Source: Microbacterium psychrotolerans (GTDB lineage: Bacteria; Actinomycetota; Actinomycetes; Actinomycetales; Microbacteriaceae). Taken from it: a stretch of 64,000 nucleotides of DNA. The notes under the pieces were generated by a model. The model saw only the letters and a list, made by a program, of their open reading frames with translations. It was not told where the DNA came from and did not search any database. The stretch spans positions 706,400-770,399 of the forward strand of contig NZ_JAVFWO010000001.1 of the NCBI RefSeq assembly GCF_031085295.1. The letters are read 5' to 3'. Numbering within the stretch: position 1 is the stretch's first letter; the number at the start of each line of letters is the position of its first letter. The position numbers were made by a program, and so were the translations under genes. Shown here piece after piece: positions 33,131 to 35,925 of the stretch.

Positions 33131-34819
33131 TCACGCGGAGCGCCGCCGCGACACGCGCGCGATGGCACCCGCTGCGAGCAGCGAGAGCCCCAGCAGCAGG
33201 AACGGCATCGCGCCCGCTCCTCCTGTCGTGGCGAGCTGGGTGGCCTCACCGGACGCCGCCGCCGAACCGGTGACGGTGGCCGAGCCGCCGTCACCGGGCG
33301 TCCCGTCGTCCCCCGGGTTGGTGGGGTTCGTCGGGTCGGTCGGGTCGGTCGGGTCCGTCGGGTCGGTCGGGTCCGTCGGGTCGGTCGGGTCCGTCGGGTC
33401 CGTCGGGTCGGTCGGGTCCGTCGGGTCGGTCGGATCGGTCGGGTCCGTCGGCACCACGGCGTCGACCGTGGTGCTGTCGCCGATCACCGAGATGGCATTG
33501 CCGCCGATGGTGATGGGCAGCGAGATCGGCGCCAGCACCTGCGTGCCGCCGAGGATCGAGCCCGGGCCGCCGGTGGTGCCGGTGGTCCCATCGGTGCCGG
33601 TGCCCGGCGCTGCGGCCGCACCCGTCGAGGTGCTGTCGCCGATGCCCGAGATCGCATTGCCGACGACCGTGACCGGCACGGCGATCGGTGCGAGCACCTG
33701 CGTACCGCCGAGGATGCCGTCCGTGCCGTCGGTGGTGCCGCTGGTGCCGCCGGTGGTGCTGCCGGTGGACGGTGCCGTGGTCGCGGCATCCGTCGACGCG
33801 CTGTCCCCGATGACCGAGACGGCGTTGCCGACGGCGGTGATCGGGGCGGTGACGGGTGCGAGCACCTGCGTACCGCCGAGGGTGCCGTCCGTGCCGTCGG
33901 TGGTGCCGTTCGCGCCGTTGCCGGTCGAGCCGGTCGACGGTGCCGTGGCGGCACCCTCGCTCGAGCTGTCGCCGATCAGCGAAATCGCGTTGCCGACCGC
34001 GGTGACCGGGGCGGCGACGGGTGCGAGCACCTGGGTGCCGCCGAGGATCGAGTCCTCGCCGCCCGTGGTGCCCATCGAACCGGCTGACGGCGTGCCTGTG
34101 CCGGCGGTCGTGGTGGCGTCGGTGGACTCGCTGTCTCCGATGAGGGAGATCGCGTTGCCGCTGACGGTGACCGGCGCGGCCACGGGAGCGACCACCTGGC
34201 TGCCGCCGAGGATCGAGTCCTCGCCGTCCGTCCGGGCATCGGCCCCCGCGCCGGCGCCCGAGCTCGCGGACGCCGTGGTGGCGTCCTCGCTCGTGCTGTC
34301 GCCGACGACCGAGATCGCATTGCCCGAGACCGTCACCGGCGCCGCGATCGAGGCGATCCCCTGGGTTCCGGACAGCAGGCCGTCCTGGCCCGAGGTGTCG
34401 GCCGGTGCCGCCGGGGCGGTGGCAGGAGCCGGCGCGGAGGTCGCGGCATCCGTCGACGAGGAGTCGCCGACCACCGAGATCGCGTTGCCCGAGACCGTGA
34501 TCGGCACGTTCACCGACACGAGGCCCTGCGTGCCCGAGCCGATGCCGTCGGAGCCACTGGTCGTCGCCTCGGCCGGAGCCGGAGCCGGAGCCGGAGCCGG
34601 CGCCGCGGTGGTCGCGCCGCTGCTCGACGAGTCGCCGAGCACCGAGAGCGACGTGCCGCTGATATCGATCGGAAGGTTGACGTCGATGATCGCCTGGCTG
34701 CCCGAGAGCAGCCCGTCATCGCCCGTCGTCTCGGCCGCATTGGCGACCGTCGCGCCCAGCAGCGTGATGCCGCCGGCGAGGAGCGTGCCCAAGAGGGCGC
34801 GCTTGTAGAAAGTACGCAT
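33131..34819 (-). CDS. Surface protein with eight chaplin-like repeats and a C-terminal sortase signal
   Basis: A 562-aa exported protein. A signal peptide (LLGTLLAGGITLLGATVANA) is followed by eight repeats of about 30 residues spaced by Ala/Thr/Gly-rich linkers. A typical repeat is GTQVLAPVTAPITAVGNAVS followed by VIGDS. The alternating P-V-x-V then GNxxxVIG pattern resembles chaplins, the amyloid-forming surface proteins of Streptomyces, but without cysteines and in far more copies. About 13 TDP triplets then form a stiff wall linker. LATTG, a hydrophobic helix and RVSRRRSA form a sorting signal of the LAxTG (class E sortase) kind. Likely wall-anchored and surface-active (inference). Confidence 0.75.
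   Translation of the reverse strand: MRTFYKRALLGTLLAGGITLLGATVANAAETTGDDGLLSGSQAIIDVNLPIDISGTSLSVLGDSSSSGATTAAPAPAPAPAPAEATTSGSDGIGSGTQGLVSVNVPITVSGNAISVVGDSSSTDAATSAPAPATAPAAPADTSGQDGLLSGTQGIASIAAPVTVSGNAISVVGDSTSEDATTASASSGAGAGADARTDGEDSILGGSQVVAPVAAPVTVSGNAISLIGDSESTDATTTAGTGTPSAGSMGTTGGEDSILGGTQVLAPVAAPVTAVGNAISLIGDSSSEGAATAPSTGSTGNGANGTTDGTDGTLGGTQVLAPVTAPITAVGNAVSVIGDSASTDAATTAPSTGSTTGGTSGTTDGTDGILGGTQVLAPIAVPVTVVGNAISGIGDSTSTGAAAAPGTGTDGTTGTTGGPGSILGGTQVLAPISLPITIGGNAISVIGDSTTVDAVVPTDPTDPTDPTDPTDPTDPTDPTDPTDPTDPTDPTDPTDPTNPTNPGDDGTPGDGGSATVTGSAAASGEATQLATTGGAGAMPFLLLGLSLLAAGAIARVSRRRSA
33327..33456. repeat. 9-bp tandem repeat encoding (Thr-Asp-Pro)n
   Basis: About 13 copies of GGGTCGGTC or GGGTCCGTC, differing mainly at one synonymous position, inside the surface-protein gene. 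Slippage would change linker length in steps of three residues without breaking the frame. Confidence 0.85.
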
Positions 34820-34938
34820 GGTGTTCCCCTTTGTGGATTGATCGGTTCGCAGCGCACGGAGAGGCGCTGCTCAGCGCGTGAGGGCGCGCTGGTTCCTGTG
34901 CCGCCCGCGCTCGGATGAGCAAGGCGGCCGGGGACCGA

Positions 34939-35925
34939 TCAGTCGGGGGAGACGTCGGTGGAGCCGACGGGCGCCGGCGGCGCGTGCTCGTCCTCCGGAC
35001 CTGCTCGACGCACCCAGGCACGGTGTGCGGCAAGAGGAAGGAGGGCAGCGAGCGCCCAGGCACCGGGACCCGCACCACCGGGTCCCGCGGAGGCAGTGGG
35101 CAGACAGAGTCCGCCTGCAGAGCTGAGGGGTCCGCTCACGGCGAGCGCGGCGGACGAGACGACGACCGAGGCGGCAGCGGTGGCGTGCGACACAAATGCC
35201 GCCGCCCACTTGCCGATCGAGCCGGCGGTCGTCGAGAAGAGAGCGGCCGCGGCATCCGTCGGGACGGTGGAAGCGGCGAGCGCGTCGTCCGCCGTCAGTC
35301 CACCCGACGACGACGGAAGGCCCGGAATCGCAGGGATTCCGGGAAGTGCGGGCACCTCGCCGGTGCCGCCGACGGGCGGGAGTCCGACCGTGGCGCCGGT
35401 CTCGTCGACCGCGCCGACGACGCCGGTCAGCGTCTCGTCGACGGTGCCGCCAAGGTCGTTCACCGCGTCGTCGAGGCCGGTGCCGGTGACGATCCCGCCC
35501 ACGATTGGAACCTCGGTCACGAGGTCGACCACGGGCTGGGTGATGCCGCTCACGACGCCGCCGGAGACGACGTCGGAGACCGGGTGAGTGACGTTCGTGA
35601 CGACGGTGCCGACCGTCTGGACCACCTGGCTGACCGGCTGCTGGACCGGCGCCGGAGCGGCGGCGACCACCGTGTTGACGGCGCCGGTGACGCCCGTCGT
35701 CACTGTGGAGACGGTAGTGGTGACGGTGGTCGCGGTCGTGTCGACCAGCGAGGTCACGGCACCGAGAGCACCCCCGAGAAGTCCTCCGTCTTCGGTCTCG
35801 TCGGCGTGCGCCTGTCCGAGGCCGAGGCCGAGGACCAGCGAGACGACGATCCAGGCGAACGCGGTTGCGACCCCGATGAGGGCCAGCCGCACGATCCTCG
35901 GCAGCTGCGAGGTTGCGATCTCCAC
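34939..35925 (-). CDS. Secreted Val/Thr-rich protein of unknown function with C-terminal membrane segment
   Basis: A 328-aa protein. The N-terminus has a signal-anchor (IVRLALIGVATAFAWIVVSL) ending near QAHADE. The body has short repeated Val/Thr/Gly blocks (VSQVVQTVGTVVTNVTHPVS, TQPVVDLVTEVPIVGGIVTG). A C-terminal hydrophobic stretch (AWALAALLPLAAHRAWVRR) and acidic tail follow. Family not recognised. The start is uncertain: GGGAGGTGA precedes GTG 35925, and GTG 35931 overlaps that site. It lies 119 nt before the chaplin-like gene on the same strand, so the two are probably made together at the surface. Confidence 0.65.
   Translation of the reverse strand: MEIATSQLPRIVRLALIGVATAFAWIVVSLVLGLGLGQAHADETEDGGLLGGALGAVTSLVDTTATTVTTTVSTVTTGVTGAVNTVVAAAPAPVQQPVSQVVQTVGTVVTNVTHPVSDVVSGGVVSGITQPVVDLVTEVPIVGGIVTGTGLDDAVNDLGGTVDETLTGVVGAVDETGATVGLPPVGGTGEVPALPGIPAIPGLPSSSGGLTADDALAASTVPTDAAAALFSTTAGSIGKWAAAFVSHATAAASVVVSSAALAVSGPLSSAGGLCLPTASAGPGGAGPGAWALAALLPLAAHRAWVRRAGPEDEHAPPAPVGSTDVSPD

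Follow-up and report, generated by a model that had tools for sequence, protein, structure and literature searches.

Streptomyces chaplins carry one or two chaplin domains according to the available text of PMC3079736, in agreement with an earlier note on this DNA. The domain has three GN turns at a spacing of about 12 to 13 residues, as described in the accessible part of PMC13251363. The same parts of these sources report that ChpE of S. coelicolor has a cysteine-free domain, yet makes fibrils in vitro (PMC3079736), and that ChpB is cysteine free only in its C-terminal domain (PMC13251363). Actinoplanes missouriensis produces two surface proteins, CwpA and CwpB, which are hydrophobic and for which a role in making the surface hydrophobic has been proposed in the available portion of PMC13251363. 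In rpmI-rplT and the MS2 coat-lysis pair, the ribosome site of the downstream gene is concealed in a structure that opens when the upstream gene is translated; coupling weakens with distance, and rpmI-rplT, at +52 nt, is an example of unfolding (PMC12548453, text available in part).

The locus described here lies in a 64,000-nucleotide stretch of the Microbacterium psychrotolerans genome (the window). We take the host genus to be non-filamentous. The minus strand of the window carries two co-oriented ORFs, one for a secreted partner (35925-34939, 328 aa) and one, downstream across a gap of 119 nt, for a chaplin-domain protein (34819-33131, 562 aa). The pair is flanked by rplI and dnaB, and the ORF on its rplI side is presumably GNAT-like. 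A consensus scan of the window found one promoter-like site upstream of the partner gene and no terminator-like or promoter-like site in the gap. The features of the locus are as follows.

33131..34819, minus strand, multi-repeat wall-anchored chaplin-domain protein, 562 aa (ORF; Pfam and NCBIfam profiles)
34736..34819, minus strand, signal peptide of the chaplin protein, to ...VANA (sequence inspection; similar in relatives)
34607..34735, minus strand, chaplin repeat 1 (degenerate)
34439..34567, minus strand, chaplin repeat 2
34274..34402, minus strand, chaplin repeat 3
34109..34237, minus strand, chaplin repeat 4
33944..34072, minus strand, chaplin repeat 5
33779..33907, minus strand, chaplin repeat 6
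33611..33739, minus strand, chaplin repeat 7
33452..33580, minus strand, chaplin repeat 8
33332..33448, minus strand, (TDP)13 linker
33221..33235, minus strand, LATTG sortase motif, followed by a hydrophobic segment and RRR tail
34939..35925, minus strand, secreted partner, 328 aa, V/A/T-rich, C terminus STDVSPD
35386..35778 (approximate bounds), minus strand, partner region with amphipathic alpha-helix periodicity (periodicity; AlphaFold at low confidence)
34934..34959, minus strand, 5' arm of the RNA element: last codons, stop, and first bases beyond, containing the anti-Shine-Dalgarno CYCCY
34823..34846, minus strand, 3' arm of the RNA element: sequence upstream of the Shine-Dalgarno (SD) and the chaplin SD GGGGA
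34823..34959, minus strand, whole predicted RNA structure: closing helix around three hairpins (folding)

The earlier note had read eight repeats, a TDP linker, a LATTG signal, and a complete lack of cysteine from the letters, with a second exported protein encoded just upstream, and all of these were found. The chaplin protein has eight 43-aa repeats spaced about 55 aa apart (DNA period of 159 to 168 nt), a single run of 13 TDP units (aa 458 to 496), and LATTG at aa 529; it contains 0 Cys, and the 328-aa partner (34939-35925) contains 1. Repeat 1 is degenerate, with GTSLSVLGDS in place of the GNAISVIGDS of most repeats. The codon array of the TDP run (33332-33448) is a mixture of two nine-base unit versions, a likely source of length variation. 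The proposed chaplin homology was confirmed by profile search: Pfam ChpA-C (PF03777) matched the protein with an E value of 2.2e-27 and 95.1 bits (cut-off of 21), and eight stretches each passed alone, which exceeds chance by far. Four ChpA-C matches were found in the genome, all inside this one ORF, its single chaplin gene. The sortase-anchoring signal was recovered by the LPXTG anchor model TIGR01167 (16.4 bits against a cut-off of 15.9), and the closer LAVTG model scored 20.7, under its cut-off of 27. The class E sortase that the note had suggested looking for is present (240.7 bits, cut-off of 160), together with a class C sortase (268.7, cut-off of 160) and a class F-like one that scored 103, below its cut-off of 166. 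The class C sortase gene of this genome (L005) adjoins one for an LPLTG-ended, pilin-like surface protein, by inspection a probable sortase pilus cluster. AlphaFold drew strands in three chaplin repeats at a mean pLDDT of 37.7, too low to use, and a PDB sequence search with the repeat alignment gave no match.

The protein shares the chaplin domain, a signal peptide, a sortase anchor, and a class E sortase in the genome with the Streptomyces long chaplins ChpA-C, but it differs from them in having eight domains rather than two, no Cys, and a truncated profile match, and in being the product of the only chaplin gene in the genome of a non-mycelial host, where long and short chaplin genes were not found together. 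Its best stretch covers profile positions 5 to 45 of 57, so that the region of the third GN and second Cys is absent. The best matches of a class-level search span positions 2 to 57 and come nearly all from one many-copy family, which we take to be of the Streptomyces kind. Compared with three such domains, the residue preceding the second GN is Ser, Val, or Gly, not Cys, and the first GN is replaced by GT or GS, although the majority of repeats in Herbiconiux and Plantibacter retain this GN. In place of the third strand, with its GN and Cys, the repeats of this protein have GDS and a polar stretch. Instead of two Cys and three GN turns, each domain thus keeps no Cys and one GN. Like ChpE of S. 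coelicolor, the protein has a chaplin domain without Cys, but ChpE is short, single domained, and without a wall anchor, whereas this protein is long, eight repeated, and anchored. Because cysteine-free ChpE makes fibrils in vitro, as the available text of PMC3079736 states, the loss of Cys does not exclude assembly. Cys pairs at chaplin-like positions occur in the last repeat of two Herbiconiux loci (L040 and L041) and in the last two repeats of the Occultella locus (L054); these are the repeats nearest the wall.

ChpA-C matches were present in 68 of 119 genomes of the genus, in 54 of the 249 genomes in the family draw (25 of 85 genera), and in 67 of 296 genomes of the class, all counted with per-domain cut-offs that miss weak copies. 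The family draw is Microbacteriaceae, if the named relatives are a guide. No ChpA-C match was found in 14 control genomes. A search for relatives returned 29 loci. Matches were good for Microbacterium, Herbiconiux, and Plantibacter and weaker for Occultella and Geodermatophilus; of the other loci, 19 were similar only from residue 412 on, in the linker and tail. Chaplin proteins of Microbacterium loci, with duplicates removed, contain 4 to 10 repeats (mode of 7), apart from L100, which has two overlapping ORFs of 2 repeats each. The multi-repeat arrangement is common in the family and not peculiar to this genome.

The partner has a signal peptide recognized by inspection and a middle region composed of 26% Val, 13% Ala, and 12% Thr. 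Over 77 loci, its hydrophobic-moment spectrum peaks at 96 to 100 degrees (0.293 versus 0.157 for shuffled sequences), and autocorrelation maxima fall at lags 4, 7, 11, and 15. This periodicity shows a putative amphipathic helix in the middle region. AlphaFold also drew helices there at a pLDDT of roughly 50 to 58, with an overall mean of 40.0 that is too low to use. Nothing in Pfam or NCBIfam matched the partner above cut-off; DUF7217 (E value of 0.028) and Baculo_PEP_C (0.033) were sub-threshold. The partner is likely surface active and may act as a surfactant or fibril accessory. Its identity falls to 27 to 41% in many loci, where the last residues remain near TDVSPD, and the C terminus is (S/T)PD-stop in nearly all relatives examined. 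The residues before SPD (34942-34983 and relatives, often DDxLPxSP) are conserved across genera as well, and SD pairing does not explain them.

The partner end is conserved as DNA, beyond the protein level, and its common Microbacterium form is ACCGACGTCTCYCCYGACTGA. With one mismatch allowed, an 18-base core occurs exactly once in 70 of 118 genomes of the genus, and a reversed control pattern is absent from these 118 genomes. The same search of the family draw found the motif in 19 of 249 genomes, 3 of them Microbacterium. Among the other 16, three (G149, G223, and G330, sharing one genus code) have ChpA-C on the same strand no more than about 700 nt downstream; the remaining 13 have no ChpA-C there and may be chance matches.

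The last codons of the partner gene carry an anti-SD that is complementary to the chaplin SD and the bases preceding it. In folding of this genome, TGATCGGT pairs with ACCGATCA, and CCCC pairs with GGGG, enclosing three hairpins; the fold of 34815-34985 has an energy of -86 kcal/mol (z of -4.61). In some species, the stop and SD regions are predicted to form one uninterrupted helix. Bulges in the arm pairing differ between clades, the enclosed hairpins differ between loci in length and sequence, and the distance from partner stop to chaplin start is 67 to 136 nt (74 loci). In the window, ACCGAC at the 5' end of the arm forms a small hairpin with upstream coding sequence.

Arms pair better with their own counterparts than with those of other loci. 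The mean for own arms was -25.26 in 51 loci compared to -18.77 (sd of 0.52) after permutation, and duplex energies were -25.95 compared to -19.29 (sd of 0.41) in 77 loci, with 0 of 20,000 permutations reaching the observed value in either case. These permutation statistics ignore descent; 48 representatives cut at 80% similarity gave -25.75 compared to -19.09, again 0 of 20,000. The post-stop side alone gave -13.14 compared to -9.49 (0/20,000), and the coding side alone likewise gave 0/20,000 in the 77 loci and in the 48 representatives. Own arms form 20.2 pairs per locus on average and swapped arms form 17.9. At post-stop positions +3 and +5 to +11, pairs are seen as GC, CG, TA, and AT across loci, and SD variants shift together with the arm (GGGG with CCCC, AGGAG with CTCCT). 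Codon choice is constrained as well: the Pro codon at -2 is CCT or CCC in 77 of 77 loci and never CCG, which makes up 46% elsewhere in the same ORFs, and TCT and ACT together occupy codon -3 in 50 of 77 loci versus 7% of Ser/Thr codons elsewhere. In whole-gap folds, the SD and stop regions paired with a probability above 0.5 in 43 of 45 own combinations, 105 of 180 swapped ones, and 33 of 180 shuffled ones; swapped arms often still pair because the core is strongly conserved. Of 49 other gene pairs on one strand with gaps of 60 to 180 nt, as delimited by a crude gene caller, 4 showed such SD-stop pairing.

The pairing is uneven in strength. Against shuffled 3' segments, z was below -2 in 49 of 51 loci, the exceptions being L039 and L042, and the own arm ranked first outright in only 13 of 51 loci (median rank of 6). 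The minimum free energy fold leaves the SD unpaired in 5 of 51 loci, and just 2 SD bases are paired in L214 and L216. No such element was seen in the Geodermatophilus locus L055, where the start is probably misplaced.

The element and the partner end accompany the locus across relatives. In 40 Microbacterium stretches, a partner BLAST match lies near the chaplin ORF in 35, rplI in 37, and dnaB in 38; in the five without a partner match (L078, L080, L081, L087, and L105), the upstream ORF still ends in SPD and has the arm. In other genera, chaplin matches were the sole basis for picking loci, and SPD, TPD, or APD closes the upstream ORF in 20 of 20 (12 genus codes). Occultella gossypii, which belongs to a different family (Ruaniaceae), has a partner-like ORF ending in SPG-stop with an arm pairing of -26.9 kcal/mol, from one locus without a control, and its chaplin has (TDP)n, LAETG, and Cys in the last two repeats. 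Chaplin and motif were cross-checked in the genus from lists of 119 and 118 genomes, respectively: 57 genomes had both, 11 had chaplin only, and 13 had motif only, and stretches were inspected for all 24 discordant genomes. The element was present in all 11 chaplin-only loci, with more changes. Among the 13 motif-only genomes, five (L139 and L141-L144) have a similar signal peptide and a similar anchor with a different repeat region in between, three (L145, L146, and L148) have chaplin repeats under the search threshold, and five (L137, L138, L140, L147, and L149) have partner and element with no chaplin ORF within 700 nt downstream. L149 retains a signal-peptide-like remnant. Because motif-only genomes keep the element with another ectodomain or none, it serves the locus and not the chaplin domain itself, and the ectodomain looks exchangeable, as judged from these sequences. 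The repeats of L139, L141, L142, L143, L144, and L065 are D/G/L/V-rich, and these loci retain (TDP)n, an LA[TA]TG anchor, and the RNA element. The alternative ectodomain, scanned in L142, had one Pfam match, with an E value of 0.28 that is far under the cut-off.

That an unrelated repeat region stands in place of the chaplin repeats in M. timonense and five drawn genomes fits repeats that are a spacer or display stalk only and form no coat, whatever their ancestry, as do the loss of the third strand and cysteines and the lack of a confident AlphaFold fold (pLDDT of 37.7). We consider this unlikely given the whole-protein ChpA-C match (E value of 2.2e-27), its absence from the 14 control genomes, and the several G, P, and GN positions that do not vary among 32 segments of three repeats each, taken from seven loci. 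A coat function of the repeats, by analogy with chaplins, is the reading we prefer.

The stop-codon arm could also belong to a ligand- or protein-controlled leader, riboswitch-like or a thermosensor, whose overlap with the partner stop is incidental. Such a leader would have a strong fold with enclosed hairpins (z of -4.61) and a single copy per genome, as seen in 70 of 118 genomes of the genus, but a ligand pocket would not be expected to change in length and sequence as the enclosed hairpins do, all of 20 loci that were not selected for the arm have it at the stop codon, and the Rfam 15 covariance models run over 34600-35200 gave two chance-level matches only (E values of 2.5 and 4.3), so we hold it to be improbable. 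That the SPD-stop end is a protein signal, a C-terminal tail for a partner or protease with SD complementarity as a by-product, would suit the residues about 7 to 14 from the end that are conserved in many loci (LPxSP and neighbors) and that the RNA model leaves unexplained, but it is very doubtful and was rejected on codon choice and covariation, since third codon positions are constrained, post-stop bases covary with bases upstream of the SD, and SD variants and arm change together.

We favor translational coupling by RNA unfolding on the computed basis of the pairing, its conservation, and the codon constraint. The locus is probably a two-gene surface operon in which translation of the chaplin is coupled to that of the partner by an RNA element at the stop codon. 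Prediction and covariation together place the downstream SD of two co-oriented neighbors in a structure that reaches into the upstream ORF, the arrangement called for by coupling through unfolding. On a shared mRNA, the last codons and stop of gene 1 are predicted to form base pairs with the gene 2 ribosome-binding site, so that the chaplin SD would be buried as long as the partner is not translated to its stop; a ribosome terminating at gene 1 would cover or melt the arm and free the chaplin site. Chaplin translation would then depend on partner translation, and because the terminating ribosome is what frees the site, the wall-bound protein would be made only with its secreted partner. Co-transcription of the two genes is weakly suggested by the gap, where no terminator or promoter was found. 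Gene 1 would supply a secreted, valine-rich, amphipathic-helical protein that is likely surface active, and gene 2 an exported long-chaplin-like protein with eight cysteine-free, two-strand repeats on a (TDP)n stalk. The signals and the sortase gene suggest that class E sortase attaches the latter to peptidoglycan, where the anchored repeats may, as in chaplins, form a beta-rich, hydrophobic or adhesive coat. Gaps of 67 to 136 nt, which are long for coupling, and the five genomes with partner and element but without a chaplin ORF count against it, as do the uneven pairing and the frequent pairing of swapped arms described above.

As in rpmI-rplT and MS2 coat-lysis (PMC12548453, available text), upstream translation would open the structure hiding the downstream site. 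Unlike in those systems, the site would be hidden here by the region of the upstream stop codon itself, the gap of 67 to 136 nt is predicted to form hairpins, and the layout belongs to a surface-protein operon and is conserved throughout a bacterial family. The locus also resembles that of CwpA and CwpB in having two surface proteins, an apparent operon, and a class E sortase. According to their authors, however, both Cwp proteins are wall anchored and lack chaplin domains, whereas only one protein is anchored here, and RNA coupling does not appear in the available part of that account (PMC13251363).

The chaplin domain, long-chaplin anchoring, and translational coupling are all of known kinds. 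Among the open-licence literature matches listed, none described an eight-repeat, Cys-free chaplin with a helical partner or a stop-codon-embedded, family-wide anti-SD. In PMC8852316, one of these matches, "Chaplin" is a surname. We see about an even chance that the RNA element is family wide and has not been described before, that in it the stop end of gene 1 is the anti-SD of the next gene, that it forces non-filamentous actinobacteria into ordered, ratio-controlled output of a secreted amphipathic-helical surfactant and an anchored multi-repeat chaplin, or an exchangeable ectodomain in its place, and that the coat system is older than or parallel to mycelial chaplins.

Chaplins are usually seen as tools of aerial growth, but a family of simple rods has the multi-repeat form in many of its members. 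A chaplin-like gene has been described in one nonsporulating rod-coccus, where attachment was suggested as a possibly older role (PMC4255298, text available in part). With its two proteins, single chaplin gene, and predicted RNA switch, the present system makes the idea of an older attachment role testable in a non-sporulating host. The locus would also be a natural case of long-gap translational coupling in which the compensatory changes have already been made by evolution.
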